A DNA stretch of 64,000 bases, taken from contig CANXME010001453.1 in assembly GCA_948144175.1 (NCBI GenBank), positions 1,984,001-2,048,000 on the forward strand. Direction: 5' to 3'. The notes under the pieces were generated by a model. It saw only the letters and a list, made by a program, of their open reading frames with translations. It had not been told where the DNA came from and did not search any database. Shown here one piece after another: positions 5,601 through 56,500 of this stretch (its first letter is position 1; the number at the start of each line of letters is the position of its first letter). Position numbers and translations under genes: made by a program. This stretch comes from Closterium sp. NIES-65. Lineage: Eukaryota; Streptophyta; Zygnematophyceae; Desmidiales; Closteriaceae.

Positions 5601-6433
5601 CCCCTGTATCCGTCCAGCTTTGCAGTGCTATCCGCTTCCTGTTGTTATAGATGCACACTTTCCTGTTGATCCAATCGATCTCGGGGTTGAACCGCTTCAG
5701 AAAATCTCGCCCCAAGATAAAATCTAACCCTTTGATGTTGGTGACTGGTAGCTTTGGCTTCCACCTCAACGCACCTATGTGCAGCTGTAGTGATGCTTCC
5801 CGGTGGATAGGAAGCTTCGTGCCGTCCACCATGGTTGCTGAAAACTGGGTCTCTTCCGCCTTCTCTCCAATTTTCTCCAATGCTCCGCGGTCACACACCG
5901 AGTGAGATGCACCGCTGTCCACCAGTGCCTGGAGGCGTCGCCCATTGCATAACACCTCGAGGAGTAGTGGTTTCTGCTGCGCTGTGTAGCCAAAGAGGGT
6001 CTCATTAATAGGATCATAGGGTACATCAAACTTAATACCTTCCCTTTTTCCTATACCTGACTCAGTGCTTTCCAACTTCACCTGAAGGGTATGAGGATTT
6101 TTTCGAGGCTTGTATAATTTCTCTAGAGCCTGGATGTCTCCTCTAAGCCTTGGCAGCTGTGTAGGCTTCACCTGTGGGCAACGGGGAGCCTTAACACTGT
6201 GCTGCGGGGAGAGAATATTAACTCCACGGAACGCACGACCTTTTTCTAGGCTCCGTAGTACTTTGCCCAACTTCTCAGGTACCTGAATAATTTCTAAAGG
6301 CTTTTTCTTGGCCTCTAAACCTCCCCTGAATTTTTTAAAGGCTTGAAAACCACGAGAAGCAATATTCTTTGTTAGTGTATCTTTATAGGATACGTTTAAC
6401 GAATTCTTACTCTCGTGGGTGTTCGGCTGGAGT

Positions 6434-16194: not shown

Positions 16195-16389
16195 GGCAGC
16201 AGCTGAAAGTCTCACCGGGCTGGAAGAGTCGGGTAGGTCAGCAGCAGAGGAACACAGCTCAGGGACAGCAGCACGGCTCCTCAGGTGGCTCGCGTGGCTC
16301 AGGCGGCTCGGGCGGCTCGGGCGGCTCGGGCGGCTCGCGCGGCTCGGGTGGCGTAGGGGCTGACGGGCGGCGCGGGCTGCTGGGGCTGC

Positions 16390-22747: not shown

Positions 22748-22748
22748 C

Positions 22749-22787
<39 letters not shown>
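22748..22787. repeat. CTG/CAG trinucleotide run in Copia family B
   Basis: About 13 repeats of ctg (cag on the coding strand) giving a Gln run in the linker between integrase and reverse transcriptase. Confidence 0.92.
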
Positions 22788-22790
<3 letters not shown>

Positions 22791-25663
22791 CACCTCAGGT
22801 TCTCCCCCATCCTCAGTCACCCCAGAGATCTCCTCCTCTGAGATGGCAACCTCCACTTGCCTCGAAGGCCGCTGCATCTCATCGGCCTCAACGATCAGCG
22901 GTGTCGTAGGAAGCTTCTGCTGCTGCTGCTTCCACTCCTTGTAGTACAAGGACTCCAGGAACTTCACGTCCCTTGACACAGTCAGCTGCTGGCTGGTCAA
23001 GTCCCATATGAGCCAGCCCTTGTGGTCCTTCGCAAGTCCCAAGTGCACACCCCATCTTCCAGAAGCTTCCAACTTTCCCCTCTTCTCCTTCGGCACATGA
23101 AACACCACCATGCAGCCGTAGGCTCTCAGCATGTTGACTGCTGGTGCACTCCCATACCACTTGGTGTAAGGCACCCACTTCTTGTCCCCCACAGTTGCGA
23201 GCACCCTGTTCTTCACCACAACGACCTGCCGTAGTGCAGTCACCCAAAACGGATCCGGCAGCCCTGCACGCCCAAGGAGAGTGCGAGCACCTTCCTGCAG
23301 GGTCCGGTTGAACCGCTCAGCCACGCCGTTCTGCTGAGGGTTGTAGGGCACCGTGAGCTGATGCTGGATCCCCTTCTTCTTCAGCACCGCCTCAAAAACA
23401 GCGCCAATGAACTCTCCCCCATTGTCGGTGCGGATCACCTTCACTTTGTGTCCGCTCTCCCTTTGTGCTCTCGGCATCCACTCCTTGAGAACAGCCGCTG
23501 CCACCTCCCCCTTAGTCTTGAGAGGGTAGACCCACACCGCACGTGTGTGGTCATCCACAATGGTCAGGAAAAAGCGGCTGCCCGAGAGAGAAGGGGCCCT
23601 CGTGGGGCCCACCACGTCCATGTGCACAAGTGCAAGTGGAGCCTTCGCTGGTCCCGTGCTGCTGCTGAAGGGAAACTTCGTGAACTTGGTCTCAAGGCAT
23701 GTAGGGCAGCTCCCAATCTCCCTTGCTGCCCCCTTCACCTCCAATCCCTTCAGGTTCCCATCCTTCACCAATTTCTGCAGCATCGGAATGTTGATATGGC
23801 ACAACCTCTCGTGCCACGTGTCCCAATCGGCCTCACCACTCCCAGAAGAAGCCTTTGCCCATGCAGCCGTTGCATCCACACCAGCAAGCACCTCACCATG
23901 TGATTGCTGTGGCTGCTGCACCTTCTTGACTGCATCCAGGGCCCCAGCAGTTGGTGCAGTCTCCTCTCCTCCCGCAGTTGCTTTAGCCGCTGCCGCTGCC
24001 TTTGCCGTTGCTGGAGGTTTCCCATTCCAAGGGATGATGGGCAGCTGCCACAGGTCCTTGATGCAGCTGCTCTTCTCCTCCAAATCCCACAGCAGCAACT
24101 TCCCAAGCTTTGCACGGCAGCTGGTTGGGCCGAACGTAACTTTGGCCTTGCTTTTCTGTAGTCGGCGCACAGAGAGGAGGTTAGCGGATAAACCTTCAAC
24201 CAACAGCACATTTCCCAGCCCCACAAGCCCCCCATTGGCTCCCATAACCTTGGCATTCCCAACACCAATCACAGGGAGCAAGGCACCTGAAGCGGCAGCC
24301 ACAAACTTTATCTTCCCAGGGGGCTTCACCTCATCAAGCAAATCTGCCCGTGGAGTCATGTGACTCGTGCAACCTGAATCGATCACCCAGTGAGTGAGGG
24401 GGTGCATCACAACCTTCCCAACTAAACCCACATCACCCCCACTCCCTTGCACGTCCTCAACCATGAGGAACTTACCAGGGTCGGCTTTACCTTGTGCACC
24501 ATCACCTTGTGCACCTGAACCTTGCATAGCACCACCTCGTGCACGTTCACCACTTGGCGGCTTCATGCCTGGAGGCGCCCATCCTTCAGGCCGGCTGAAA
24601 CACTTGAACCATGGGTGTCCAGCCTTCTTGTAGTACCAGCACGCACCCTCCATTCGGGTACTCCCCTTGCCACCAGAGCTCCCATGCCCCTCGTTGTAGT
24701 CACCTCGGCCTCTTCCTCTGCCAAAGCCTCTCCCACGGCCTCGGCCTCTCCCTCCCCCTCTTCCTCTGCTGCCTCCTGCAGCTCCATACCCCTCAGCAGT
24801 TTTGTTGGCAGCACCACCTCCCATGTGGCGCCTGCGGAAGTCCTCCTGCAGGATCTGCTGCCGTAGCCACTCAGGCGTCCACTTGTCCTGCTAAACGTTG
24901 AGGGTGGGGATGAGGTTGTCCCACGAGTTGTCGAGCACCGAGATGATCTTGGTGCACTGCTGCATCTCCGACACCTTGCTGCCCGCCGCTGCCATCCTCG
25001 CATAGGTGTCCTTGATCTTGTCAAGGACCGGTTTCACATCGTCTCCCGCCTTCATGGAGAGAGCAGCCAGCTCCTTCTCCATTACGATCACCATCGGCAG
25101 CGTGTTGGGTTGTACCACATTGCGTAGCAGCTTCCACGCCTTAGGCCCGGAGTCGTCCAGCTCCACTAGGTCCTTGATATGCTGGAACATATCGTTGTTG
25201 ACCGATTGAAGGATTAGGTCGTACAGCACCGCGCTCTTCTTAATCCATTTGTCGCGGGCATCACATTCCTCCGGCATTTTCTCTTCTCCCATCGCAAGTT
25301 TCAGCAGCTTGTAGCGCTTGAAAGCGCTCCGCATCCGCCCGCTCCATTCCTCGTAGTTGGAGCCGTCCAAAGCCTCGATCTTGGACGGTGGCGGTTCACT
25401 CTTCTTCTCAGCTGCTTCTCCACTCATCTCCTCTGCTCCCAATCAGAGGTTTCAGCTCCCCCTTTTGCTGGTCACAATGTAGATCCACAATATTTTCACA
25501 AGTGACGGCGCCAACGAAATTTCGGCAGAGTTTCCCCTTAACGGAAGTCACATCCAACCTCCAGAACTCCACTTAGGCACGCCCACAGGCCATGGTGGGT
25601 CTAGGAGGGTCTTCACACTTCAGTAGACTCCCCACAAGGTCCTTAATCAGCTCTGATACCACT

Positions 25664-28900: not shown

Positions 28901-30047
28901 TCGCACTGCCTACTGTTTTGAGGATGCACCTACTGCTGCTACTGCTACTCTACTACTACTCCTACTACTGCTATGGCTAGCCCTCCTGTGCTAGCTTTTG
29001 ATGCTGAGGGCCGCCCAGTGAAGTTCGAAACCTGGCTAGATGACCTACACCTCTTCCTACAGCTCACTGCCAAGGAGGACATCTCACTGTACGATCACGC
29101 CCTAGGCCATGCTACTGCTCCTGCTGCTACTGCTGACAGCACTGCCCGCTCACAGTGGCAGAATCGTGACGCCCACGCTTCCTTTGCTATTCGCAACTCC
29201 CTGCCGATAGACGAGCGCGAGCACTTAGGCCAGCACAAGACTGCACAGGCACTGTACACCGCTGTCGTTGCCCGCTACTCCTCACCTTCCTCTGCCGCGC
29301 TAGGCCGTCTCTCACTCCCCTACCTGTTTCCCGACCTGGCCTCGTTCCACACAGTCGCTGACCTCATCACGCACCTCCGTACTAGTGAGGCCCGCTTCCG
29401 TGCCGCCATGCTCGATGAGTTTCTTGCCAAGAACCCTCCCCCGCTCTCGCTCATTCTTTACCACCTAGTCACCTGCCTCCTTGACACTCTGCGTGCTATC
29501 AGGGATCACTTCCTAGCTCGCTGCCCCACTGAGCTCACCATTGCCTTTCTTGAGAAGGAATTGCTTGCAGGTGAGGCTAGCATAGTCGCTGTAGGTGCGT
29601 CTCGTGGCGACCCCCGCACCCCTTTCTTTGAGGGGTGTTCCCCTTCCCCCCTTCTTCCCTCTGTAGCCTCTGCTTCTGCTGTCGACCTCCTTGGTTCTGG
29701 GAATGTCGGGGCTGCGTCTGCTCTGAGCGGGCGCCGCAGCGATAAGGGAAAAGGGGGCAAGGGAGGCGAAGGTGACGGCGAGGGAGGCGGTGGTGGGGGT
29801 GGTGGCGGCGGTGGGGGTGGTGGTGGGAATGGTGGGGCTAGTGGCAGCGGTGTGGGTGGTGTCGGCAGCGGCGGGGGAGGTGGCAGGGGCGGGGGCGGTG
29901 GTGGGGGCGGCGGTGGACGCGGCGGCGGCAAGGGAGGAGGTGGTCAAGGAGGTGGCGGCGGCGGTGGTGGTCGTGGAGGCACTGGCGGTGGCCAGAGCCT
30001 GCAGCACTCTCCGTCGCCCCAGGAGCTCCGTGAGTGGTACGCTCAGC

Positions 30048-30092
30048 ACGGGGGGGGGGGGGGGGGGTGGGGGGGGGGGGGGGGGGGGGGGG
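30048..30092. repeat. Poly-G tracts in Copia family D gag
   Basis: Two runs of G separated by a single t. Tract length is likely unreliable in the assembly, so frames read across it should not be trusted. Confidence 0.85.
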
Positions 30093-33000
30093 ATGGCCTT
30101 AGCTGCACGTACGTCATCCGCACTTGTGACCGCACTGGTCAGACGTGTGGGAGGGCGCACCCCACGCAGCGCGGCTTCTCACGCCTCGACGACGCTTGGC
30201 GTACTTAGTTCCCTGACGCCACTGAGCTGCCCCGCTATGCTGATCTGATGAAGCAAAACATTGATATCTTTGCTCTAGACTTTGATGCTATTCTCTCTGC
30301 CATGTATGTGATGTCTATTAGTGGAGAGGGTGCCCAGTACCTGCGTGTTCCGCCCGACCCGGGCATTCGACCCGGTCAGGCTGCCGCTCTAGGTGCTAGA
30401 GTGTCTGCTACCCCAGGTGCTGGTGAGGCTGCTGCTCTAGGTGCTGGTGCGTCTGCGCCCCCTGGTACTTAGTCGACTGAGGCACTGCACACCTTTACAC
30501 TAGACTCAGGTGCCTCCCGCTGTTTCTTTCGTGACCACACGGCTCTCGAGCAGCTTGCTCGGCCCGTTGCAGTCTCTCTCGCTGACTCCCCTGGGGGTCC
30601 AGTCCTTGCGACCTCCTCCACTGTCCTCCCCTGTCCGGCCGTCCCGTCGGGCATACTGTCCGGTCTCTACCTCCCCTCGTTCTCTACAAACTTGGTGGCG
30701 GGTAGTGCGCTCCAGGACATGGGTGTCCACCAGTTCACACCTGCCTACGAGCGCGTGACACACTGCACGTGTGCTCGGACGGGCCGTCACCTGGCGACCT
30801 TCACACGGCAGCCGGGGTCGGACCTGTACACACTGACTACTGAGTCCCCTCAGGTAGCTTCGTCTGCGTCTGCGTCAGGTCAGCTCTCGGCCCCCTGCTC
30901 GTGCCGCTCTCTGGCGCACGAGACCGTCCTCTGGCACCACCAACTTGGTCACCCGTCCGTGCAGCGCCTTCGGGCAATGCACAAACGGTACCTTGTCTCT
31001 GGTCTTCCCAGGGTTCTCCCTCCCCTCCCACCCTCACCTGCTCCTCCCTGTCTTCCCTGCGTCGAGGGGCGGCAGCGCGCTGCTCCTCACTCCTCGTTTC
31101 CCCCGACGACTGCTCCCTTGCAGACGCTCCACATGGACGTGTGGGGCCCCGCCCGCGTCCATGGTCAGGGTCAGGAGAGGTACTTCCTGATAGTTGTTAG
31201 ACGACTACTCGCGCTACACCACGGTCTTCCCCTTGCGCACCAAGGGTGAGGTCCGTGATGTTTTGATCCCTTGGATCCACGCTTCTCGTCTTCAGCTCAG
31301 CGAGCGTTTCCACTCGGACTTTCCTCTCCTGCGCTTGCACTCTGACAGAGGTGGTGAGTTCTCTTCCGACCTCTTGGCAGCCTACTATGCGGAGCACGGA
31401 ATCTGCCTGTCGTTCACGCTTCCGGCCTCTCCACACCAGAATGGGGTTGCTGAGCGCTGCATTGGCTTGGTCATGGAGGCCGCCCGTACCTCCTTGATCC
31501 ATGCGGCAGCTCCCCACTTTCTGTGGCCGTTTGCGGTCCGATACGCTGCGCATTAGCTTAACCTCTGGCCCCGTGTCTCCTTGCCAGAGACCTCCCCGAC
31601 ACTGCGTTGGACGGGAGAGGTTGGCGATGTGTCGCGTTTTCAGGTCTGGGGATCCCGAGCTTTAGTTCGCAATACGCCAGCGGACAAGCTCTCCTCCCAC
31701 GCTGTTCCGTGTGTCTTCCTAGGCTTTGTTCTGGACGCGTCTGGTTGGTAGTTTTACCTCCCCACCTCCCGCCGTGTCCGCGCCTCTCAGGACGTCACCT
31801 TTGACGAGTCGGTACCCTTCTACCGCCTCTTCCCCTACCGCACTGCCTTGCTCCCTCCCCCGCCTCTCTTCCTCGCCCCAGGTGCTGTTGTGGTAGACCC
31901 CCTCCCCCCTCAGGGTGCCGCTCCCTCAGGTGTGTCCTAGGTAGACCCAGTTGAGCGTGTCAAGGTAGCTGTCGACTCTCGTCCTGCTCGGGGTGCTGAG
32001 CCTGAGCATGCGGAGCCTGGGGTTGCGGAGACTGAGGGTGCGGAGTCTGGGGGTGCTGAGCCTGGGAGTACGGAGCCTGCTTGTGCTGAGTCTGGGGGTG
32101 CTGAGCCTGGGAGTGCTACGGCTGGAAGAGCTCTCTCCTCACAGCAGCTGCGTGAGTGGTACTTACAGTACTGCAGCCTCAGGAGAGGTGCTTCTGGAGC
32201 TAGGAGTGCTGCTGGAGCTGGTGCTCGTGCTTCCTCTCCTAGGCGGAAGCTGCCCTCTCCCCAGCGACTTCGTGAGTGGTACGCACGGCGCTGCAGTCTC
32301 AAGAGTGGCGCTCCTAGTGTCGAGGACCCTGCTACTGGTGCAGCGGATCCTGGAGTTGGAGTTGCTGCTGCTGCTGCGAACCCGGGCGTTGGAGCTGCTG
32401 CTGGTGCTGCGGACCCTGGAGTTGGGGTTGCTACTAGTGCTGCGGACCCGGGAGTTGGAGCTGCTGCTGGTGTTGTGGACCCTGGAGTTGGGGCTGCTGC
32501 TGGTGCTGCGGACCTGGGCGTTGGAGCTGCAGAAGCGGCTGAACCTGGCGGTGCTGGGGGTGTTGCTGGAGCTGCTGGAGGTTTTGGTGCTGTCTCTGCT
32601 GCTGCAGGGGGCACCTCGCGGCCGCGGCCGTACTTCATTCCACTCCTTCAGCAGGTTCTTGGTCAGTCACCTCAGCCTGGTCCCCCTCCCTCTGTAGAGT
32701 GTCCACCGCCGGTCCAGTCGCAGTCACAGCTACCACCTGCCTCGCCACTTCCTCATCCTTCTCCCTACACTGGTCCTACAGGCGGTCTTACGGAGCGTCG
32801 TGATCCTGAGTCTCGCCCTGTGTCGCCTGTGTCCCGTCCTGAGTCACCTCTTTGAACTACTTCCACTAGTCGCCGTACTCCGCGTGAGTGTCCGCCACCA
32901 GTCCCTAGCACACACCGGATGTCACTGCGTCCCTCCACTGCTCCACAGCGTATCCCTCTGCCGTCTCCTCTTGAGTCCTCTTTTCCTGCTCTTGCTGACC

Positions 33001-35128
33001 CTGAATCTGACTCTCTTCGTGCTGCCAGTCCTACTGTCACGCGCCTCCTGGCCACTGCTAACACTGACCCTTCGTTTGAGTCTGCTGCTGCGTCTGCCCT
33101 AGTTGCTGAGCTTCTCGACTTTGCTGCTCGCTGTCGTCTAGACTACGCTGCCATTCTTGTTGCTCATTCTAAGTGTGTCTGTCCTCCGTCTGTCGGGGGT
33201 GAGTGTGCTCTTAGCACGGACGTCGTTGAGGACCGACAGGAGGATCTTGAGTGTCTTGCAGCAGCTGCGCCCCATCTCGTGTCCATGCTAGTTGCCCCTG
33301 AGGGAGACCCGGATGCACCAGACATCCCGACTCCTCGATCGTACGCTGAGGTGATCGAGGGTCCCTACTCCTCACACTGGCAGTCAGCCATGGACGCAGA
33401 GATGGCCTCCTGGATGTCCACAGGCACCTACGTCGACGAGGTTCCCCCACCTGGGGCGAACATCGTTAGTGGCATGTGGATTTTCAGGGTGAAGCAACCG
33501 CCGGGTTCTCCGCCTGTCTTCAAGGCTCGTTACGTTGCTCGAGGCTTCAGTCAGCGAGAGGGAGTTGACTTCTTTCAGACCTTCTCCCCCACCCCGAAGA
33601 TGACCACTCTTCGGGTACTACTGCACGTTGCTACTCAGCGCGACTACGAGCTTCACTCTCTTGACTTCAGCACAGCTTTCTTGCAGGGCAGTCTGCACGA
33701 GGAGATCTGGCTGCGCCGCCCTCCTGGCTTCACTGGGTCGTTTCCTCCTGGTACCCAGTGGAGCCTCCGGCGGCTGGTCTACGGTCTCCGCCAGGCCCCA
33801 CGTGAGTGGCATGATACACTGAGGACTACTCTTGCGGCACTTGGGTACTCGCCTTCTACTGCTGACCCCTCGCTGTTTCTACGCACCGACACTTTGCTGC
33901 CGCCGTTCTACATCCTCGTGTACGTCGACGACTTGGTCTTTGCCACAGCTGACACTGAGTCCCTTGCCCACGTGTAGTCGGAGCTGCAGAAGAGACACAC
34001 GTGCAACGACCTGGGTGAACTGCGCAGCTACCTTGGCTTGCAGATCACCCGGGACAGAGCACGCTGCACCATTACCCTGACTCAGTCACACATGGTGCAG
34101 CAGGTCCTTCAGCGCTTCGGCTTCACCTGGTCCTCAGCACAGGCCACTCCTCTGGCTATAGGTCACTCGCTCTCAGCTCTGCCTTCGGATGAGTGCGTAG
34201 AGTCGAGTGGTCCTTACCCAGAGCTAGTTGGTTGCCTCATGTACCTGATGACTTGTACTCGTCCTGACCTAGCATACCCTCTTGGCCTTCTGGCTCGCTA
34301 CGTGGCTCCTGGTCGTCACCGAAAGGTGCACTGGGATGCTGCAAAGAGGGTATTGCGCTACTTGTGCAGTTCATCAGGCATGGGGCTCGTGCTTGGAGGA
34401 GGGAGCTCAATTGTTCTCACTGGGCACTTAGACGTTTCTTGGGTTGACGACCAGGCTACTCAGCGGTCGTCACAGGGTTACACCTTCAGCCTTGGCTGTG
34501 GTTCAGTTTCGTGGTGCTCTACGCGTTCGTCTTCAGTTCTCAGCTCCAGTTGTGAGGCTGAGATCTACGCCACAACCATGGCTGCACAGGAGTTACGATG
34601 GCTCACCTACTTGCTGACCGACCTTGGAGAGCGGCCTAGTTCTCCTCGAGTGCTGTACGTCGACAACAAGGCTGCCATTGCCTTGTGTGAGGAGCACATA
34701 CTGGAGCACAGAACGAAGCACATCGCTCTCCGTTACTTCCTTGCTCGTGAGGTGCAGCAGCGTGGTCAGCTTCGTCTACGCTACGTGGCCTCTCAGGCCA
34801 ACACCGCTAATATATTCACCAAGGCACTTCACTCTGGTGATCATCAGCGCTTCTGTACTTTGTTGGGGCTGGTACCCACTTTGCCTCACTTGTTGTAGGC
34901 TTTGCCTGTACTGTGATCTCTATATATACTCCTGCCTGTTTGCTCTGCTAGGCTGAGATCACCTTTGCTGTCTGTACTACTTATATCTAATTTTGCATGT
35001 GAACTGGCCATGTGGCCTTTTGCTTGTGCTCGGAGTGTGTGGTAACATTGTGATCCACCCTGAGCTTGCTTGCCTTTCTTGACTGTTCTTGTGACCCCTT
35101 GCTCTCCCCCACTTTGCCTATGGGGGTG

Positions 35129-35254: not shown

Positions 35255-38200
35255 CCCATATCTTATGTAAGGCAATAGCAGTGATCGTTGTCTCAGGAAA
35301 CTCCGAACCCGAGCCTTCCTTCTAGTACAGCAGATCAACTAGCAAAGTAATCTTCCTGCCTGGATTGATGATACGGAGGGCCTTCAGCAGTCCCTGTACC
35401 ACAGACTGAATGCGGGTCTGGCCGAACAAGTGCTCTGCTGCCTCTTCCCTACCACACTGCGAGTATGCAACCCTGACCTTAAGGTTGCGACTGCGCTGGC
35501 AAGGCAAGACGTCCCGAGCCCAATTTGGAATCACCGCAGAGTCCCGCACCCTGATGACTCTTTCCAGCCAAACTATTTCCCCCACTCCTCCGACCATTTC
35601 TCTTGATGTCGCATCAACCTCTGTTGTGCGCCAAACAACATCCTCATGTGCTAAAAAGGGGGGATCCGATCCTTTGCACAAATCTCCGAGCAGCGCAGCC
35701 ATACCTCAGGCAGCCCGATTGCTCCAATCACCCTTCCACCTCTCAATATCAACGGCTCCACCTTGTCCAGATCAAGAACTGCAGTTACTTCCGCAGACCC
35801 CACCCGAGACTCTTCGAAACAGTCGCATTCTTGGCAGGCAAGCCCATCTTGCCCCACCATCTCCACCTTCCAAACTCCCACCTCTCCTGTCTTCTTCACG
35901 TATGCAAATTCTGCCAAGAGTTCCGCCCCCGTGATTGGCGCCAATAGTTTCTCCTTCCACGAGGCCGGGACGCTACCAAAGAACTTCAGCGCCTTCCGCG
36001 CCTTCTTGAGCATACCCAGCTCTTTTTCCAACGCCTTCTCATCCTTGATAAAACGCGTACCGTCATCCGCACGACCAACACAGTCACCAAGCTTCATCAC
36101 CTCCAGCCCTTTTGCCGTTGCATGACATCCTAGCGGCTTCTTACTGTTGGGCAAGACATGCCGATTGAACACCAGCCGCTCCTGCGCCACATCCCAGCGC
36201 AAAACTGGGCCCTTCTTTGCTATGCTTGATTTCATGAACAATTCGCAGGTCTGCTTCCACCTGACGCTTCGACCTTTCCACTCTTACAGGAAATCCGGGT
36301 ACGCCCAGAAGGAGCGGAAGCGAGCAGGGAGGTCAGCCACCTTCGTCGCCAACCTTCTGCGTACACCACTCCTATTCAACACCAGCTTCCCCGCCCTCCT
36401 AGCAGCCAGGCCACTGAGTTCAATGAAAGGATCCCGAACCCCCAGCCCGCCATCCTTCCATGGTCTGAAAATCAGCTCTCTGCTCCAAAGCGTGAACTGG
36501 CTCACTTCGGACGCCTAGCTGCTAGAGATAAAATTCACGAGCAACTTCATGATCCGCTTCCACGCCTTATCTGACGGAGGGTATGCTTGCCCTTGGAATG
36601 CCAAGAACGGGCAAACGTAAGCATTGATAACCGCCACCTCCGCTGTTGTGGTCAAGTTCTTTGACTGCCATTTCACGAGCTCCTCCGCCGCTCTAGCCAG
36701 CATCTTATCCCATGTAACTTTTACACTTCCTGACGGGGAGACCCAGACTCCCTCATCGGCATGGGAACCTCGGAGTTGGTCGAACGCCCACCCGGGGTGA
36801 ACATCATTAAGAACCAGTGGGTGTTGATGACAAAGTACCACATCGCCGACACCGTCGAGCGTGAGAAGGCGAGGCTGGTCGTGAAGGGCTTCACGCAGGT
36901 GTATGGCGCCGACTACGGCGAGACGTACGCACCGGTGAGCAGCTACGTCACGCTGAGGATCTTCCGGAGCATTGTCGCCGTCCTCGACCTCAACCTGATG
37001 CAGCTCAACATGAAGAACGCCTTCCTGCAGAGCAAGCTTGACCATGTGTTGTACATGAACCAGCCGGACTACTTCAACGACGGAACCGGCCGGGTGTGCA
37101 AGCTGCTGAAGTGCCTCTACGGGCTGAAGCACTCGCCGCTGCTATGGTACAGAGCCCTTGACGCCGTGCTGCTGGGCGCGGGCTGGAAGAAGAGCCAGAT
37201 CGACACGGCGCAAGACTTCAAGGTCGGCGGGGATGGCGTGGCCTGCCGGGTGCTGGTCTACATCGACGACTTGCTCGCCGCCAGCAGCAGTGCAGCGATG
37301 CTGAAGGAGCTGAAGGAGCTATTGGAAACCGCCTTTGAGCTGCGCGATGTTTTGCTAGTGCAGAAGTACCTCGGCACGGAGATCATGCGTGACAGGCCGG
37401 TGAGGAAGCTGCGCCTGCACCAGTGGGGCTATGCCGACAAGCTGCGTAGGCGTTTCATTGACGAGGAGCAGGGCGGTCGGACCCTAAAGACGCCAGTCTC
37501 GGTCAACGCCTACATCGAGCTCACCTTCGTTGACGAGGAGGCACAGGAGCGCCAGGAGGAGTACCGGCAGAAGTTCGGCTCGCAGTTCGCGGCGACGATG
37601 ACAAGGCCGGACATCGCCTTTGCCTGCACCAAGCTGGAGAGCGGCCCCACGGTGAGGTGTGACCAGCACTGGCGTAAGGTCGACCGCTGCCTCGCCTACC
37701 TCGCCAACACCCGTGACACCGCCGTGAAGTTCGTCGGTGGACCAGCGTCACTGGAGCTAGTCGACTACGTGGGTGCCGACGACGCTGGCAACAACCAGAA
37801 CCGGACGAGCACGTGCGGCTACGTGTTCGTCTACGGAGGGGACTCAGTCTCCTGATCGAGCCAGCGCATCAACTGCGTGACGCTGTCGTTGACCGAGTCG
37901 GAGTACGTCGCGGCCACCGACGCCAGGAAGGAGGGACGCTGAATTCTCTTCTTCATGGCTGAATTCCGGCAGCTGGATGCTGGCAAGCCGACCGTCCTCC
38001 GGGTGGACAACAAGTCAGCCATCACGGTCTCTGAGGCCATGGAGTTGACGGGAAACCTCAAGCACATGGAGCGGCGAAAGGCCTGGCTGCAGCACATGGT
38101 GACGCGCGGGAAGTTTCGCTGAAGTACATCACGACCACCGAGCAGCCGGCCGACTTTCTGACGAAGGCGCTGCTCTACCGGCCTTCAACCAATGCTCCGT

Positions 38201-44500: not shown

Positions 44501-47500
44501 ACGGGGGTTGAGGAGCCAACCCATGGCGTGCAGGCAGTTGTGTAGCTGTGCATCCCACCTCTTGGCAATGATTGCCTTGATGGTGGTAAAAAAGGTGCTT
44601 CTATCCTTCGTGGCTAGCAGTTCCGTCCGTCTGATGAAGTGGGAGGTTGCTCACGGTGGAAATTGAGCAGATAATGTACAGTACACAACAGAATAAAAAA
44701 CAGAATGCACAAAACCAGAATGTCCAAAACAGAAAACAAACTGAACAAAACAGAAAATACAGGGTTGACAGCAAATCAGAAAACATCCAGCCCACCCACT
44801 TACCAGCCGCCTCAGCCGCTTCGGTTGTCTTGACCGTGGCCTCAAGCATGAGGCCATAGATTTGGCCCATGACTTGAGCCCGTGTGTCAACGGCTCGAAG
44901 AAAACGTAGATCGGAGTCATGAGGCGGAGCACCGCCGTCCCACAGTCCCAAAAAACATCGTCCAAGAGGAGCTTCCTAACCTCCATCCCCTCCTCCGTCT
45001 GTGCCACCGCCACCTCCTCCCATTCTTGACTGATTACCACCGCCCTCAACGCCCTCTTCACCTCCAGGAACTTGCCCAGCATGATGACCTGGGTGCCGAA
45101 TCTCGTTGCACCCGGCCGCACCAAGGAGGGCTTGCTAAAAAGCTCATGGAACAAGATGACGGCAGAGGCGCTGCCTTTGACCATCATCACCACGCGGTGC
45201 ACTTGGCCAAGCACGCGTTTAACAGCAGGGATGTTGCCAAGGTCGTGCAACATGACATCTAGGCAGTGGGCGGCGCAGTTGGTGAAGACGACATGGGGAT
45301 ACGCCGAGCGAAGGTTGTTGGTGGCGATTTTGTTGTTAGAGGCGTTGTCCATCACGACTTGGATGACATGCGTAGGCCCCACCTCCTTCATCGCGCCCTC
45401 AACAAGACCCGCCAAGTAGACCCCGGTTTTTTTGGCGGTCTTCGAGTCAACGATGTCGACGATGACGGGAGCAGTGTCATTTTGGGCGATGACACGACAC
45501 ACACCATCCCGCGGGATTTGATGCATGTCCACCCATCCACGGAGAGCATGCACCCGGTTGTCTTCCACCTCTCCTTGAGCTTGTCGAGCAGCGGGCCGGA
45601 TACCTTGTAGGGGGTAGGGAGGGTGTACGCCTTCCCGTACACGACCGCCGCGTCAGCGAAGGCTTGGATTGACTTTGACTTGCTGGCGTTGAAGGCGAGG
45701 TTGTTCTCAGCAACTGCAGCAGCCCGCAGGTAATGTCACCGAATATGCACGGTTGTGCATATAAGGTGCCAGAATCATGGTGGTGTAGTGGAGGTGTAGC
45801 TATGTTGTGTTTGCAAATTCGAGGATAGGTAGGTGGGAGCTGGGAAATTGACGCGAAGTTGGTAGGAGAGCACCTTGGGTGAAAACCTTGCAACCAATGA
45901 AAACGAACCAGCCCAGGCTCGAGCCGCACATTGAGAAATGCACGGTTCGAGCCAGGGTCAGGTAAGTTCACTCTCACACACACCTCTGATGCTTTCTGGT
46001 TGTTTTCCTTTCGTATAGTGGACTATTGTCACCTTACCAGAGCAGGCAGGTGGCACACCACTCAGGGAGGACCTTAGAGGTGAGAGTTCTGTCACTTTCA
46101 TAACAACCAGAAAGGTGCGCGTACAAGCATGGATGTGTACGAGATGCGTTACGGCAGGAATTATGGTCGCCATGAGGCGGATCGCTCGCGGCGCGCACGC
46201 TCACGTGAGCGCGGGCGCTCGCTGGAGAGGTCGCCGCAGCGGCCTGAGCGATCGCCGCGGAGGCCGGCCTTTTGCGCGGATCAGGTTTCTCTCGCGCCAG
46301 ATCGCCAGGAGGGAGGTTCCGCCCGAGAAGGAAGAGGCGGATCTGGATCCGTCACGACGGGGAGTGACCCGTGGCGGACGGACGGGCGTCACGGAGCGGA
46401 TGGCGGTCGTGGGTACCGCCAGGACACGGGAGCATACCGCTCGCCGGAGGAAGGCTATCGCCGTCGCGAAGAGAGAAGTCGCGGGCGAGGTCTGGAGGGG
46501 CTCTTCTCGGGTCGCCAAGGCGATCTTGATGTGGATGGAGAAGACGAGGCCGACTCGGCGAATCGAGTGCGGGAGACGAATCGTGAAGGCGAGACCAAGG
46601 GCGATGACGAACCCCAGGAGGAAGGCGCAGGCGAGCAGCGCGAGATGCCCGCTGGAGTTGATGACGACGATCCTGCGCAGGCGGGCGTGGCGGCGGAGCC
46701 GAGCACGGCGGAGGCGGAAGAAAAGGGCGGTACTACCCGAGACCTGCCGCGCGACGGAGAGAAAGGTGACGGCGGGGGGCGTGGCAGTGGCGCGCGCTCT
46801 CCAGATCCCCGTCAGCAGCGTGACGAGGGACGTGGCGACGGCGCGCGTTCGCCTGATCCGCGCCTGAATCGGGACGGAGGACGCGGCGGCTGTGCGCGCT
46901 TGCCAGAGGCTCGGCTGAATTGTGATGGGGGACGCGACGGAGGCACGCGCTCGCCACATCCACGGATGTATCGGGAAGGGGGGCGTGGCGGTGGCGCGCG
47001 CTCTCCAGATCCGCGTCAGCAGGGTGACGAGGGACGTGGCGACGGCGCGCGTTCGCCTGATCCGCGCCTGAATCGGGACGGAGGACGCGGCGGCGGTGCG
47101 CGCTTGCCAGAGCCTCGGCTGAATCGTGATGGGGGACGCGACGGAGGCACGCGCTCGCCAGATCCACGGATGTATCGGGAAGGGGGGCGTGGCGGCGGCG
47201 CGCGCTCTCCATATCCGCGTCAGCAGCGTGACGAGGGACGTGGCGACGGCGCGCGTTCGCCTGCTACGCGCCTGAATCGGGATGGAGGACGCGGCGGCTG
47301 TGCGCGCTCGCCAGAGCCTCGGCTGAATCGTGATGGGGGACGCGACGGAGGCACGCGCTTGCCAGATCCACGGATGTATTGGGAAGGGGGGCGTGGCGGC
47401 GGTACGCGCTCGCCTGATCGGCGGCAGAATCGTGACGGGGAGCGCAGTGGCGGCGCGCGCTCGCCAGACCTGCGTCTCCCGCACGAGGATGGGAGGCACG

Positions 47501-50500
47501 GAAGCGGCTACCGCTCGCCAGGACGGCAGCAGCTACAGGAAGAAAGGCGCAGAGGCGGCTACCGCTCGCCAGAGCTACGGCGACACCAGGACAGTGGACG
47601 CGGGGGAAGCGTGCGCTCACCAGATCCGCGGAGGTATCACAACTGGAGAAGCGGGGGGGAGCTGCGCTCTCCAGGTCCTCGTTACCCTCGTGATGAGAGA
47701 CGCGGAGGCGACTACCGCTCGCCTGATCTGCAACGGTATCATGGAGAGAGGTGGGGAAGCGAGACGCGCTCGCCCGACTGGCACAGGCAACATGAAGAAA
47801 GCCGGGGAGGCGGATACAGCTCGCAGCTTCGGCAACAGAGCAGGGATGAGGGGCGCGGCGGAGGGTATCACTCACCCGATCGGTACTGGCAGCATGACGG
47901 AAGACGTACCAGTGAGGGAGGACGGGATCAACGCAACAGCAGAGAGGAAGGCAGCGGGCTGATGCACAGCCTAGAACGGGCTAGAGAGGCGAGGGAAGGG
48001 ATACTGCGGGCGAGAGAGAGAGGAGCGTCAGGGAGATCAGCAGGAGGGCCGAGCGAGGCGTGGGGAGAAGGCAAGGGAAGCACGGTGATGGCCACGAGAG
48101 TGGAAGTGCCAGCACGCTTCTCAGGAGATCAGCGCACGGGCCCCACGCTGAAGAACTACCTGATGCAGGTGGGCAACGTGCGGTACAGATGCAAAAGGAG
48201 CGGCATGGACTCGGTGGACTTTTTCCTTAGTCTGCCAAACACATTGGAAGGGGAGGCGGAGACATTGTACAGGATGAAGATGGATGAGCTACTGGAAAGG
48301 GCAGGAAGGTACGGGGAAGACCCTACTGAAGCATTCCTGAGGCGGCTGAAACGGCAGTTTCCAGGTCACACCGCAGAGAAGGTCAGGGAATTCCAAGATT
48401 TCAGGAAGGGGCGGGGCGAGTCACTACTCACCTACTATAACCGGCTGGTCAACCTGGCAGAGGATGTGACTTGCGCAGACATGGCCCTGCTCGTGAGTAA
48501 ATTCCTGGATGGGCTGGAGGGCACTTTGGGAAGCGGACTGCGGATGAAGGTGTATGAGATGGGGGCCGACACAATGCTTGAAGAGGTGTTTGAACTGGCA
48601 GAGAAGATGGAGCTGGCGCAGAGGAAATATGAAGCATACAGGCCCAGACAGGCGGAGCGCGGCAGGGGGCCTACATGGGCTGCGGCCATGATACCAGAGG
48701 AGAAGGACAGGGCAGCGGGAAGAGGGGAGACCAGGCCTGACACACGAACATGCCACAGATGCGGGCAGCCAGGACACTTGCGCCGAGACTGCAAGAACTG
48801 TGACTCCTGTGGCAAGCGAGGGCATCGGCGGCGGGAATGTCCAACGGCACCGAAGTGTGAAGTCTGTGGGAAAGGAGGGCATGCAGCAAAGGAGTGTTAT
48901 CAGCGAGAGGGGGCAGCGAAGAAGTCACCAGAAGATCTGGAGAAGCAAATCAGCAGGCTGCAGGCCCAGCTGCAGGCAATGGGACCACGACGGGAAGCTG
49001 AGGCGGGGATGTACGCCAAGGAAGAGGAGGAAGAAGATGTGGAGCAGGATGAGGAAGCCGCGTTCATGGTCTGAGCGGGAAGAGGAGAGAATGAGATGGA
49101 GCATGAGGAGCAACCAGCATACATGGCATGGCGAGGAAGAGAGGAAATGGGGTTGCGCAGCGGAGGAAAGGATGCACGGAAGGAGCAGCGGAGAAAGGAG
49201 CGGGAGAGAGGACAGAAGTCGGAGGAGAAGGAGGAGAGATGCACAGCAGCACGGCACCCCCAGAAGAGATTGGCTTGTCAGACTTCCGTGCTGCTGATCC
49301 AAGGTGGTGCGCTGTCAGTGGAAGGGGAGAGGGCTAAGACGGCTATTATAGACACTGGAGCGCAGAGCGTGATACTCGGAAAGGGGATGGCCGAGAAGCT
49401 GGGACTGTGGGCACCTGACAGGCATGTGGTGAAGGGGATGCTAGTGATGACAGCAGAGGGGGGAGAGTCGAAGTGGATGCCTTGTACGAGGACTCCAATA
49501 GAACTGACGGTGCTGAAGGGGGAGAAGCATGAGACGCCGGTTAGAATCAGGTGCGGGATCTCAGAGTCAGAAGATTTTGACGTCCTGGTGGGCACAGAGA
49601 CGATCTTTGCATTGGGCATGACCATTTGCTTCTGGAAGGAGACAGTGGAGTTTAGAACCAGGTGGTGGAGGAAGGGTGAGCCACTGGGGCAGCTGCCGGT
49701 GCAGTTTGTCAGGACCGAGCCAAAAAGGGCCTACAGGGCAGATCTGAAGGAGGTGACAGCGAAGCAGGGGGCACAGAAGGCCGCAACAGGCAAGGGACAA
49801 GGTGGGGAGCCCAGGATGCGTTTCATGGACGAACCTAGCCAGCAGACCGATTGGCAGCAACCCATTCGGCATGTGGAGCTGTTCGGAGGAATCGGGGCGG
49901 GACTGGCAGCAGTGGTGCGAAATGGAATTGCAGTGAAGCAGTGGATTTACGTGGAGAAAGCACCAGAAGTGAGGAAAATAGTGGAGCATCAGGCGTGGGA
50001 GTTGCACAGAGAGTTCCCGGAGCTGCTGCAGGGAGAGGTGATCAAGGCAGCAATGAGCAGAGGAATGAACGATGTAAGGGCCATTACGGAAGCTGAGGTA
50101 GCAAGCTGGGGGCACGTGGACCTGTTGGTGGCAGGGTGGGAATGCCAAGGGGTATCATGGGCAGGGAAGGGCAAGGGTGAGCAAGACCTACGAACACAGC
50201 TGATGGAGGATCTGTTCAGAGTCATGGAGTGGATGCAGGCGAGGCAAGGCAGAGTGGCTTACCTGCTGGAGCACTTGGATATGGAGGGAGACGTGAGAGA
50301 ACCGATAAGACTAGTGAGGGAGAGAGTGACCAGACAGGTGGGGAAAGGAGTGAGCAGTGATGCGGCGCGGATGGGAGCATATGCGCACAGGCTCAGGATG
50401 TACTGGCAGAATGTGGTACCAGTAGAAGACCTGCAGAAGGAAATAGAAGGGGTGCAGAGAGCTGGGGGATGGAAGCTGAGCGACATATTGGAGCCAGGAA

Positions 50501-53500
50501 GAACGCCAGCACCAGTGACCAAGAAGGGCTACATCAGGCATTATCCCTGCAACCAAGTGGGACAGGAAAGGCAGGCACTGCCTACCCTGGTGTCATATGA
50601 GGGGGCAGCAGGCTATCAGATGGATGGGAAGCAGCCAGGCCCAGGATTGGTGCATGACCACAGGAAGGGACAGTGGGAAGAGCCCACGGCCTTGGAGAGG
50701 GAGCTGGCCATGGGGTACAAGGAGAACGCGACAGCAGCCTCAGGCGTGAGCGAGAAGGAACGGAGACGGGCATTGGGGAATGCCATGGATGGGTACATGA
50801 TGAGGTGGTTGGTGCAGCGGATGTGGAAGGAGACAGTGCTGCACTGGGGACTGAAGGAGGGAGAAAACACAGTGGCAACGGTGAGGCACGGGGTGTGGGC
50901 CTGCCTGCAGAAACAGGAGCCAGAGTGGAAGATAGGTGAGAGCATGAGCGAAGAAGGGAAGGCAGCGATGCGGGCACTGCTGGCAAGGCATCGGAAGGGC
51001 TTCGCCTTCACACTGCTGGAGTTGGGGAAGTGCAAGATCAAAGAGATGGCGCTGAAATTGAGTAGTGACGAGCCGGTGTTCCACCGCAGGAGGAAGATGC
51101 CACCAGGGGATGAAGTGATCTGCAGGGAGAAGATAAAGGAGTTACTGGAAGCCGGACTGATGAGGAGGTCAGAGTCAGAATACGCTACCCCAACCGTGGT
51201 GGCAGCCAGGAAGGACTTGACAGGCGAGGTGTTGAGTAGGAGGATGTGCGGGGACTACAGGGATCTCAACAAAATTACAGTGCCAGATAGATACCCAATG
51301 CCGATAGCGGAAGAGCTCTTTGACAAGCTGGCTGACGGGGTGTTCTTCACGACGCTGGACCTGCGACAGGGGTTCAATCAAATCAAGATCAGAGAGGAGG
51401 ATGTGAAGAAAACGGCTTTCCACGGACCGGATGGGCTGTACGAGTGGCTTTACATGCCCTTTCGGTCTGAGGAACGCCTCCGCGGTGTTTCAGAGAGTCA
51501 TGGACGCGGTGCTGCGGGGAATAGAACACACGGCGTGCTATATTGATGATGTCGTGATTTTCAGCTTGACCGAACAGCAGCACCTGGAGGACGTGGAGAG
51601 GACCTTGACCGCCATAGAAGGGGCAGGGCTCATCTGCCATCCCAACAAGTGCAGGTGGGGGGAGCGGACAGTGCAGTATCTTGGGTATGAGGTCACAGGG
51701 GGGCAGATTGGTATCCAGCAAGCGAAGGTGCAAGTGCTGGACAGGCTGAGGGAACCAAGAGACAAGTCAGGGCTGCGTGCGGTCTTGAGCTTCCTCAGCT
51801 ACTACAGGCGCTTCGTGCCGAACTTCAGCAAACGAGCGACAGTACTAAATGGGATGCTGCGGGAGGACAAGGCATGGGAGTGGGGAGAGGAGCAGAGACA
51901 GGCACTGCAAGACCTAATGACAGCCGTGAAGACAGCGACAGTGCTGCGGCTGCCAGCAGCGGACCAGGCCTTCATCCTCTACACAGACTGGAGCAGCCAA
52001 GGGATGGGGGCAATATTATGCCAGGAGGTGGAGGGAGTGGAGAAGGTGGTGGCCTACGCCAGCAGGAGCTGCAACCCGGCGGAAGCACAATATAGCTCAT
52101 ACATTGGGGAAGGGCTGGCGGCAGTGTGGGCGGTCGGGCATTTCCGGATATACCTGCAGGGCCGAGAATTCACCTTAGTCACCGACCATCAGCCACTCAC
52201 CTGGCTGATGACTACACCAGGGCTAACAGGCAGGAACGCGCGGTGGGCGGTGAAGCTGCAGGAGTATGATTTCAAGATCAGGCACAGGCCGGGGAAGACG
52301 CTGCAGCACGTTGACGGCCTCTCTCGCAATCCACCGCCGTTGGAAATGAAACAGGCCACCCTGGGGACGGAAGAGACAGAGCAAGAGCCGGCACGGACCT
52401 TGATCTTACTGGCAAGAGAGGTGGAGCAGCCGGGGGCGAAGGGGAGTAAGGGGCCAACCGACATCTGGTTCGATGCAAAGGCAATGCAATGGGTGAAGGG
52501 AGAAACCGAGGAGGATGAAATGGTGCCTGAGAGAGTAAGGGCACGAGGGCACCACTACAGGTGGTATCAGCAGCAGCTGCAGATTAAGACGGAGGATGGG
52601 TGGAAGCTGGTGCCAGTGCCCGAGGACCGTGAAGCAGTGATCAAGGAAGTGCACACCAAGCTGGGGCACTTCGGGCATGAGAGGACCGTGCACCTGCTGA
52701 AGACGGGCTGGTGGTGGGAAGGGATGCGCAGGCAAGTAAAAGAGTGGGTGGAGGGGTGCGAGGCGTGTCAGAGGAGCAAAGCAAACCTGACGCAGGCCAA
52801 AGCAGAGCTGCACTCACTGCCAATCTGCGGACTAGGGTTCCGTTGGTCCCTGGACCTCGCGGGAGAGCTGCCACTGAGTCGAAGCGGGAATCAGTACATC
52901 GTGTTCATGGTGGAGCATGTGAGCAAGTGGCTGGAGGTGCGAGCGATCCCTAGCAAGAGCGCGAGGCACATTGCAGCAGCCTTCAAAGCGCAAGTAGTGT
53001 GCCGATTTGGAGCATGCGGGGAGGTACTCACAGACCAGGGAACAGAGTTCCAGGGGGAGTTCAAGAAGCTGCTGGCGGAGACTGGCATCATGCACCGAAA
53101 GACCTCCCGCTATCACCCGCAGAGCGATGGGCCGACTGAGAGAGCCGTGCAAACCTTCAAGCGGGGGCTGTGGGCCTACGGGGAGCAGAGGAAGAGGGAT
53201 TGGGATGAGGAGTTGGACTGGATCGCGGCTGGGTACAGGTTCGGGAAGCAGGCAGCGTTGAAGGATCACTCCCCGTATAGCCTGCTGTTCGGACGAGAGC
53301 CGATTCTGCCAGTGGGAGCACCACGAGTATTGACAGATACAGTGACAGCGGGCACGATCAGGAACTGGGTAGCCCTGTCCGAGGTGAGGGCGCGCTACAT
53401 GCGCTACATGATGCCAGCCGCGTTGGAGAATCTGCACACCGCGCAGCTCAGGGACGCAAGAAGATACGAACAGAGGCAACACAAAGGGGAGGGAAGAATG

Positions 53501-56500
53501 GCAAAGGATGTCTGCGAAGGACAGGAAGTCTATCTGAAGAGGGCTAAGTAGGACACCCTTCACGTGGGGTTGGGGACCATCCGCTCGAAAGTCAAGGAGG
53601 TACGCCCCTCAGGGGTGCTGGTCTTGGAAAACGACACCGGAGCGCAGCTGAGAGAACATCAGACGAACACTACAGTGATCAGAGGGACCGGGCCTCAGCG
53701 TACTGGTCCTGTGACCCGCGCTCAAGCCGCTCGAGCACGGGCACAGGAGGGGGCAGAGAGTGGCTGAGGCAACCGGAGGAGCTAAGGGACGAAGAGCATG
53801 AGGACTAAGGCAGATGATGAGGGTAGAGCTGTATCTCCGACAGCTGTCACCGAATATGCACGGTTGTGCATATAAGGTGCCAGAATCATGGTGGTGTAGT
53901 GGAGGTGTAGCTATGTTGTGTTTGCAAATTCGAGGATAGGTAGGTGGGAGCTGGGAAATTGACGCGAAGTTGGTAGGAGAGCACCTTGGGTGAAAACCTT
54001 GCAACCAATGAGAACGAACCAACCCAGGCTCGAGCCGCACATTGAGAAATGCACGGTTCGAGCCAGGGTCAGGTAAGTTCACTCTCACACACACCTCTGA
54101 TGCTTTCTGGTTGTTTTCCTTTCGTATAGTGGACTATTGTCACCTTACCAGAGCAGGCAGGTGGCACACCACTCAGGGAGGACCTTAGAGGTGAGAGTTC
54201 TGTCACTTTCATATGAGAGTGGCTGAGGCAACCGAAGGAGCTAAGGGACGAAGAGCATGAGGACTAAGGCAGATGATGAGGGTAGAGCTGTATCTCCGAC
54301 AGTAATCTAGCCGATTCTGCGCATTTGTATCCGTCATGTCACGGATATCTCTCTGCCGAGAGCGACGTGCGGGCGGAGGAGGGTCAACCATGGACGTGGG
54401 GGCATCGTTTGATCCTCCCGAACCGTTTCCCATGGATGAGAGCTCCTGATCGGCTGTCGCCCACAGCTGCTCAGCGTACTCCGATTTGCACATCGCGACG
54501 TTCCGATCCTTCTTGTTAGCAGTGGCGACAATGTGCTCTTTTATCCTAGTCGCATTAGCCGCGGGAAGCTTGCAATTAATGCATGTAGCACCAACGACCT
54601 TATCCTCTGCATTCTTAATCTTAATCACATGCTCCCAATATTCTGAGGCCGATCACACCATGGCGTCGATCAAGTCTGAGCTAAGCTGAAGTGGGGCAGA
54701 TCGGTGTTCTGAGGTGTTGAGTGGTGTTGAATGTGAGAAGATGAATGTGTTGAGTGACGTTTTTCACTACCAATAAGTACCTCTTAGAGCTTGTTGGTGC
54801 TGCTTTGTCGAGTGGTGTTGAGGGTATGGTTGAGATGAGAGGGAAGTTGATTGGGTGCTTGCTATTGGCTGGAAATGCATCGCATGCAATTGTTTCCAGC
54901 CAAACGACTGCATGCGAAAACACATTGCAAAGCGCGAATCGTGTTGACGAATACGCGAAACGGGTAAGAAAGTTGGCCAGTTCGCCAAATGTGTAAATCG
55001 CCGCGCCTCGTCGAATTGGTGTCGACGCGATTCGGCGAACGACATCAACGACTCTGCGAGACGGGAACGCATTTCTTTCCCGTTCGTCAAATGTCAAAAT
55101 GTCGCGCCTCGACATTTTCCTGACATACGCGACTCGACCCAAATTCGGTCGGGACTGACAAGACTTCGCACGAGATCCCCCATATTGAACTCGACGGGTC
55201 TGAATGTTGAAAATCAATATACACTGTCCCAGTTTTTAAATTTCGGCCGATAGAACGGCCGTATTTATATTTGAAACTTAAATTTAACTAATGACCGTAC
55301 TAAACCGTTTTAAACGAACGTGTAATACGATACCGTGTAATTCGGTGGAAAAAACAAAATTTCGGTCGTATTTTTTATCCTTGGTGGGATGGGAAGTATG
55401 GGAGCAAGGAAGGAGGTGTGCCACACTAGACGAGTGAGTCTCATTTGTAGATGAAATTCAAAAGGTATTAAAACTATCGTTCCCGGTTTGAGTAAGCTTT
55501 TCAAGTGAGGTGCGTCCATGAGGACAAGTGAGTTTCACTATCCAAACTGGAAAAAGGAGAAAGAGGGTGATTGCAGCTAGAAGTGACTCAGATGGTGCAT
55601 ATGGAGGGATGATAACGAGGGAGATCTAGAGAGGAGATAAAAATGAAAGGCAGGTTGGGTTACCTTGGCGAACAGGTGGGTTACCTTGGCGAACAGGTGG
55701 GTTACCTTGGCGAACAGGTGGGTTTCCTTGGCGAACAGGTGGGTTACCGTGGCACCTTAACAAGCATTGATAGCGCCCACCTACCCGTGCAAAGGTGGAT
55801 TCAGAAGCACCGGATCGATGGAGGTCAAAGGAGAGCGCAGCAAGAAATATTTTTTCAACGGCTGACAGGCGACGAACGATCTGACAGGGGCGAGGAGGAC
55901 GAGAAAAGGAAGCATGCATTCGGGCGTTGAAAACAGCAGGGAATGAGGAGTTGATGAGTTGTTAATTCGTTGCAGTAAGGCACCGGAGCTCATAAAACAC
56001 TTAAACGGGGAGCTTCCTTCCTTTTGCTGCTTCCGAAGTTCTTTCTATATACATGTTCTACTTTAACGTGAAAAGCTGAGTACAGGAGAGATGTAGTGTG
56101 ACAGCATGGAGGAAAAGTAAAGGTTGTAAGATTAGAATGGACATGGACACGCATGCATGCACGCACACGGATGCAAGTGCACGTGCCCGCACGCACGCAC
56201 ACACAAAAACGCACAGTGAACACACGCACCCATGCACACAGCACACACTCACATGCACACACAAACACGCGCACACGCACGCGCGCGCACGCACACACGC
56301 ACGCACGCACACAGACACACAGACACACACACACACACGCACGCACGCACACACACAGACGCACGCACGCACACACACAGACGCACGCACACACACACAC
56401 ACATCACACACACACACACACATCACACACACACACACGCACGCACGCACACGTGCACACGCACGCACCATGATGTGGGGCGATGAGAAGATCTCTCGAA

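Follow-up and report, generated by a model that had tools for sequence, protein, structure and literature searches.

A Ty3-type retrotransposon family of Closterium with a DNMT3-like methyltransferase domain and DIRS-like split repeats

A Ty3-type retrotransposon carrying a C5-cytosine DNA methyltransferase (MTase) domain occupies positions 45734-54301 of a 64,000-nucleotide stretch of the Closterium sp. NIES-65 genome (contig CANXME010001453.1, positions 1,984,001 to 2,048,000; hereafter the window), and it belongs to a large family in which the MTase domain is a long-standing, retained part of the element. Sequence shows directly how the element is built, how many motif sites there are, that the MTase is under selection and that the repeats are split; it also shows the primer complementarity, the target duplications and a variable repeat joint. 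From these we propose, with chances that we judge to be about even, a Ty3 element whose DDE integrase would use the internal palindrome of end-joined complementary DNA (cDNA) and whose MTase would act on that DNA.

Retrotransposons bearing DNA methyltransferases (DNMTs) have been reported from dinoflagellates and from a charophyte, where their purpose is unclear (PMC5890265; this and the other papers cited below are drawn on in excerpt). The family described here adds a large and closely dissected case to the rare instances in which mobile DNA is tied to DNA methylation. Its sites number in the hundreds, selection acts in several of its subfamilies, and a change in motif IV calls the enzymatic function into question.

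The methyltransferase domain

In the window, an open frame at 49075-51546 (+ strand, as are all coding parts and repeats of the element; 823 aa) contains the protease (PR), the MTase domain and the start of the reverse transcriptase (RT). The domain itself, at 49867-50850, was identified by PF00145, by its motifs and by a family profile as a DNMT3-like C5-cytosine methyltransferase. With the window copy the PF00145 match is borderline (21.0 bits for the whole frame, with a cut-off of 22 and E 2.6e-4; 22.9 bits for the domain alone), and all nine aligned family members match the family at E <= 1, the best at 6.2e-11. When a profile of these nine members was compared with PDB chains, DNMT3C, DNMT3A and DNMT3B came first at E ~1e-11 (6e-12 for DNMT3C), followed by DRM at 1.3e-6 and HhaI at ~1e-6; by profile, then, the domain is closest to DNMT3. 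The profile also scores phage MTase families well in another library than that of the PDB chains (phrog_116, best 5e-19). The closest relative of the pol region among solved structures is Ty3 (7e-81). The initial annotation, made from the window alone, had proposed a Ty3 element with an embedded MTase-like domain lying between protease and RT in one frame, and the frame, the PF00145 matches and the profile matches to DNMT3 bear this out.

Motifs I, IV (with its Cys), VI (Glu), VIII (an Arg pair) and X are present in the correct order. The motif IV Cys, the motif VI Glu and the motif VIII Arg pair are invariant in all nine aligned members and align with those of DNMT3. The annotation's claim of C5-MTase motifs thus holds for their order and fails for the details of motif IV, which reads WECQG and does not have the usual Pro before the Cys.

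The domain is widespread in the 874 Mb genome. A codon pattern for AGWECQG occurs at 645 sites, compared with 0 for the reversed control, which shows that the window copy does not stand alone. Of 1430 candidates in a protein search, 122 were scored, and these are 71-100% identical to the window copy across 280-328 of its 328 residues; some of these matches are duplicated or allelic contigs with shared flanks. A PF00145 search scored 123 of 901 candidates, every one of them above the cut-off, and the eight loci retrieved from it share 40-47% identity with the window copy. Among 81 RNase H sites specific to this lineage, on contigs with complete lists, 54 have AGWECQG upstream and 27 have none.

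Selection was estimated from seven copies. Of their 21 pairs, the six that include the broken window copy (L009) and two very close ones (L015-L018 and L036-L035) were excluded. In the remaining 13 pairs, all between intact subfamilies, dN/dS is 0.05-0.08 for the MTase and 0.04-0.07 for the RT side, and the 900 RT-side nucleotides compared contain zero stops in the six copies used. The excluded pairs with the window copy, whose RT frame is broken, give RT-side values of 0.22-0.60. When the MTase was also compared with that of three distant copies (L002, L006 and L005), the nine values ranged from 0.06 to 0.33, with dS mostly saturated. Judged from these ratios, the MTase domain is under purifying selection comparable to that on the RT side.

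A viral or prokaryotic origin was rejected after relatives outside the genome had been sought in several collections. Scans of viral and of prokaryotic genome contigs with short conserved stretches, including VAGWECQ, gave 58 and 19 pattern stretches respectively, none of which was confirmed as a relative; relatives that do not have these stretches would be missed by such scans. Phages (258 records) and plasmids (71 records) yielded distant C5-MTases only, with 23-31% identity among the ten matches listed for each.

The remaining coding parts of the window copy are those of a Ty3 element that has become defective. The gag frame, 996 aa from stop to stop (46084-49074), encodes CCHC zinc knuckles and is terminated by a stop that separates Gag from PR-MTase-RT. 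It is followed by an aspartyl protease domain (49315-49470; PF13975 and PF13650, both under their cut-offs). The RT is split by a frame shift near 51.4-51.5 kb into a first part in the PR/MTase frame (51241-51462; PF00078, 29.1 bits with a cut-off of 29.6) and a second part in another frame (51449-51694; PF00078). RNase H (51962-52267; PF17917), the integrase zinc-binding domain (52622-52783; PF17921) and the DDE integrase core (rve; 52841-53119; PF00665) complete the series. Within Gag, 46723-47528 (+) consists of about 15 tandem units of 51 nt (17 aa each), in which a reference stretch and overlapping stretches of 296 nt show 64-96% identity. Four further copies, L045 to L048, were dissected in the same way. 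L045 has a single open gag-pol frame of 2459 aa, and the series CCHC-PR-MTase-RT-RNaseH-integrase is complete in L045 and L048; CCHC found no match in the L047 frame, nor did CCHC or PR in the L046 frame. No chromodomain occurs among the Pfam matches of the window and L045-L048 frames.

Split repeats, a proposed primer site and the variable joint

Self-alignment of the window element gives the repeat order A1-ORFs-B1-A2-B2, where ORFs are the open reading frames. Terminal repeat A1 (45734-46102) starts with TGTC and differs at 2 positions from A2 (53845-54213) over 369 nt; B1 (53756-53843) differs at 1 position from B2 (54215-54301; extent in the self-alignment 54215-54302) over 88 nt. B2 ends with GACA, which is the right end of the element, and the same 4 bp, GTAA, flank the element at 45730-45733 and 54302-54305. 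The order A-ORF-B-A-B is shared by the window copy, L045, L046 and L047. Of eight insertions in which both ends could be assessed, seven have exact 4-bp target duplications: GTAA in the window, AAGA in L045, GAGG in L046, TGAA in L047, CTGA in C1793, CCGA in the solo copy of C2227 and TAAC in C1637:621164. The flanking 4 bp do not match in C2400, the eighth; C2292 and L048, with cut right ends, were left out of this count. A hAT-like transposase frame, recognised by eye at 44651-45652 (-), adjoins the left end of the element.

The site just 3' of A1 is a proposed self-priming primer-binding site. In the window its 13 nt (46102-46114) are the exact reverse complement of a segment inside A1 (45992-46004), and equivalent matches of 15, 13 and 13 nt were found in L045, L046 and L048, with different letters each time. 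Four of five elements are thus positive, and none of the control 22-mers reaches the observed length in any of the four (0/343, 0/329, 0/313 and 0/289; 0/1274 in total). An intron-like stretch in A1 (45962-46018; CAG|GTAAGT ... TATAG|) runs across the self-complementary segment, and splicing would delete the primer strand.

A polypurine tract, AGGAGGGGG, lies directly 5' of B1 (53745-53753). It is identical in L045 and L046 and also precedes 18 B1 matches, several of which are the same copies; in L047 the tract is GGGAGGGGG. With synthesis starting at this tract and at the primer site, the long terminal repeat (LTR) of the cDNA would be [B-A].

Where B1 meets A2, at 53839-53848, the window has the palindrome GACAGCTGTC, whose halves are the two termini of the element. 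It is exact in L045-L048 and in all 16 right ends that keep A2, from a set of 20. The meeting point, TCCGACAGCTGTC, occurs at 465 genomic sites, compared with 18 for the reversed control. The contigs up to C429 hold 64 palindromes; for 38 of them AGWECQG lies upstream, on the same strand and no more than 15 kb away (at 2.5-4.6 kb in 35 cases), and for a single one it is in the wrong place or orientation. The palindrome is also found downstream of 11 of the 27 RNase H sites without AGWECQG. These eleven pol copies (contigs up to C430), with no exact AGWECQG upstream, are either MTase-less relatives or decayed copies.

The joint between A2 and B2 (54210-54216 in the window), by contrast with the palindrome, differs among insertions. 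Among 31 distinct right flanks, 27 have a joint, and these 27 insertions carry 22 letter strings, a few of which are set apart by no more than a substitution in A. In the subfamily of the window copy there are nine different joints in ten insertions, C2292 included. At these joints A or B is trimmed, extra letters are present, a short homology is shared, or a short tandem array occurs, and the joined ends coincide with the purine tract and the primer site or lie close to them. A variable A2|B2 joint of this kind is what end joining of linear [B-A]...[B-A] cDNA would give. The tandem arrays, with a unit of about 21 nt, are seen in C1792 and in C2400/C2073 (L065, L063, L064), as if joining or reverse transcription had slipped.

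A proposed replication route and its alternatives

In the route that we propose, the element RNA would prime itself at the site after A1 and plus-strand synthesis would begin at the purine tract before B1, giving a cDNA of the form [B-A]-ORFs-[B-A]. The ends of this cDNA would be joined without homology, either in a two-LTR circle before integration or by gap repair once the element has integrated. In the left repeat, the palindrome that separates B from A would be cut by the DDE integrase, which would join the resulting ends to a target with a 4-bp stagger, and the product would be A1-ORFs-B1-A2-joint-B2. The MTase, made within Gag-Pol, would most likely methylate the new cDNA before or at integration and so let it pass as host DNA; we consider this its likeliest action because Gag-Pol carries the domain along with RT. 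Taken as a whole, a new Ty3 replication route, in which self-primed [B-A] cDNA is joined afresh in each cycle and integrated from an LTR-internal palindrome (always the left one) to give permuted, DIRS-like insertions, with an MTase of altered motif IV tied to the joined free DNA, is put forward tentatively, at somewhat below even probability. If true, it would explain the recurrence of MTases in retrotransposons with split repeats, and would tie the capture of MTases to those retrotransposons whose cycle includes a free DNA form that is joined or circular.

Three features are new here: the purine tract and self-complementary primer site, which would give the cDNA its [B-A] LTR; element ends at the B/A palindrome with 4-bp duplications; and the insertion-specific A2|B2 joint. 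No account of the proposed mechanism was found in the excerpted open-licence literature on Gypsy split repeats, on self-priming with circle junctions or on permuted two-LTR integration.

Several observations weigh against this proposal. Random cutting of a symmetric circle should give the permutation A-B-A-ORF-B half the time, and none was seen in the survey of palindromes and AGWECQG sites (contigs up to C429), so that random cutting is disfavoured. An exact palindrome lies 2.5-5.5 kb downstream of only 34 of the 100 AGWECQG sites listed, and many copies must accordingly be decayed, truncated or different. The primer-site match of L047 is only 8 nt, a length reached by 27 of 284 controls. B2 is absent from L048 and L098, and of the 20 right ends, 15 are B1-A2-B2, four terminate at B1 and one is A2 without B2. 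For one of the four ending at B1, in C1093, the stretch read is satellite only; another of the four, the A-ORF-B copy C1637:621164, flanked by TAAC on both sides, may represent a one-LTR circle or a later deletion between B1 and B2, and the remaining two are at C2188 and C160. Co-descent of MTase and RT is only partly shown: in L045-L048, pairwise identities are 43-75% for the MTase and 58-83% for RT-RNaseH-integrase, and the closest pair, L045-L046, is the same by both, but the rankings agree on that pair alone; L047-L048 comes second by MTase identity but is the most distant pair by RT. There is no clear sign of CpG loss driven by methylation. The CpG observed/expected ratio of five whole elements is 0.69-0.80, compared with 0.75 in the rest of the window, and CpG transitions make up only 3 of 37 repeat differences; the MTase segment alone has a ratio of 0.42, and one Copia frame 0.45.

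A further objection concerns catalysis itself. Motif IV has Glu-Cys, not Pro-Cys, in all 38 MTase loci read (30 from the protein search and eight from the PF00145 search), each of which reads GWECQG, and EHL replaces ENV in the 30 loci nearest the window copy; catalysis is doubtful on this account. Pro-Cys is kept in all six phage MTases examined (motif IV SPCQ). The change from Pro to Glu leaves room for a domain that no longer methylates and through which Gag-Pol would bind DNA, for instance as a cDNA chaperone or in presenting the palindrome or ends to the integrase. Such a role, which we regard as possible and rather doubtful, would fit the persistence of WECQG even in subfamilies just 40-47% identical to the window copy, the occurrence of the canonical G[ST]PC[QK]G-type pattern at six genomic sites against 645 for AGWECQG, and the absence of CpG loss from whole elements. 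It fits poorly with the invariant, DNMT3-aligned Cys, Glu and Arg pair, which a pure binder would have little cause to retain.

An MTase whose substrate is host genes, or the chromatin in and near the insertion site, and which thereby steers landing or the silencing of copies, seems unlikely to us. The known biology of DNMT3 would suit such a role. De Mendoza et al. discuss how the host epigenome may be affected (PMC5890265). Whole elements are not CpG-poor, which lends no support to the influence on silencing that the initial annotation had suggested, and a domain within Gag-Pol would travel with RT. Less probable by far is that an ordinary LTR element was rearranged secondarily into the split-repeat form, which would then be uninformative about its life cycle. 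A-ORF-B copies and solo A-B copies do exist and can come from recombination, but the layout is common to three subfamilies (window/L045, L046 and L047), 4-bp duplications stand at TGTC...GACA, near-identical copies have differing joints, and no intact [B-A]-ORFs-[B-A] insertion occurs among the copies examined. Finally, a resemblance due to chance, or a relic captured only once, the case that the initial annotation had set against its own claim, could appeal to the weak Pfam score of the single window copy and is refuted by the profile match to DNMT3C (6e-12), the 645 sites and the MTase dN/dS of 0.05-0.08, leaving it virtually no probability.

Elsewhere in the window, a second Ty3-like element was recognised by eye at about 3422-6543 (-), as were Copia-like pol frames at 10354-16389 (-), 21741-24890 (-), 28922-34898 (+) and 36734-37855 (+), one of them open for 2011 aa. 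In the assembly, 5.8S rRNA repeats that score 162-172 bits (9 of 40 scored) lie on contigs C1262 and C1143 only, compared with 143 bits for the other 31, and may point to a contaminant or an assembly mixture.

Comparison with known systems

The family has the Ty3/gypsy traits of PR-RT-RNaseH-DDE integrase order, a Ty3-like pol and a short (4-5 bp) target duplication. An ordinary LTR element was nevertheless rejected, as the ends are unlike (the left one is A, the right one A-B) and there are no identical complete LTRs at both ends. Classification as DIRS, despite the A-coding-B-A-B repeats, was rejected because the element has an rve integrase and is flanked by target duplications; DIRS elements are not known to make target duplications. 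Tf1 has conventional LTRs, integrates through its LTR ends and is not known to carry an MTase. Tf1/sushi Ty3 elements resemble the window family in having a primer site complementary to their own RNA and not to a tRNA (PMC6317226). DIRS elements of the PAT/Ngaro/VIPER type share the A1 ... B1-A2-B2 layout, and some DIRS elements carry an MTase, but they have a tyrosine recombinase where the window family has a DDE integrase (PMC6681497).

Among the DNMT-bearing elements of dinoflagellates, SymbioDIRS-Dnmt3 and SymbioLINE-Dnmt are, like the window family, retrotransposons with cytosine DNMTs, and SymbioDIRS-Dnmt3 further shares the A-coding-B-A-B repeats and a DNMT placed in Pol (PMC5890265). 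Unlike the window family, with its DDE integrase and LTR-like termini, SymbioDIRS carries a tyrosine recombinase, and SymbioLINE belongs to the LINEs (long interspersed elements; PMC5890265). The initial annotation had referred to LTR elements with methyltransferases from dinoflagellates and from a streptophyte alga; this is correct for the alga, in the form of KnitGypsy-Dnmt3, and not for the dinoflagellates, whose elements are LINE and DIRS (PMC5890265).

The closest known system is KnitGypsy-Dnmt3, from Klebsormidium nitens, a Gypsy element in which Pol includes a DNMT3; its repeats are DIRS-ordered and its DNMT is under purifying selection (Ka/Ks < 0.2; PMC5890265). Its name was found only in de Mendoza et al. 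2018 (PMC5890265) within the open-licence literature, as far as its excerpts go; a 2025 paper (PMC12344493) mentions retrotransposon DNMT3s by citing that work. Compared by description, KnitGypsy-Dnmt3 and the window family are alike in their Gypsy domains, in the DNMT3-like domain in Pol, in the DIRS-like repeats and in purifying selection. KnitGypsy-Dnmt3 has fewer copies in K. nitens than there are in Symbiodinium (PMC5890265), whereas the window family has 645 motif sites; it is said to retain key residues (PMC5890265), and the window family keeps the Cys, Glu and Arg pair without the Pro of motif IV. The excerpts of PMC5890265 make no mention of a primer site, purine tract, palindrome, 4-bp duplications or re-made joint for KnitGypsy, and report the K. 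nitens layout without a mechanism; the element ends described here offer a concrete, testable account of a DIRS-like layout in an element with a DDE integrase. By anatomy, and not by proven descent, we place the family with the KnitGypsy-Dnmt3 kind, and it looks like an extension of this streptophyte-alga kind.

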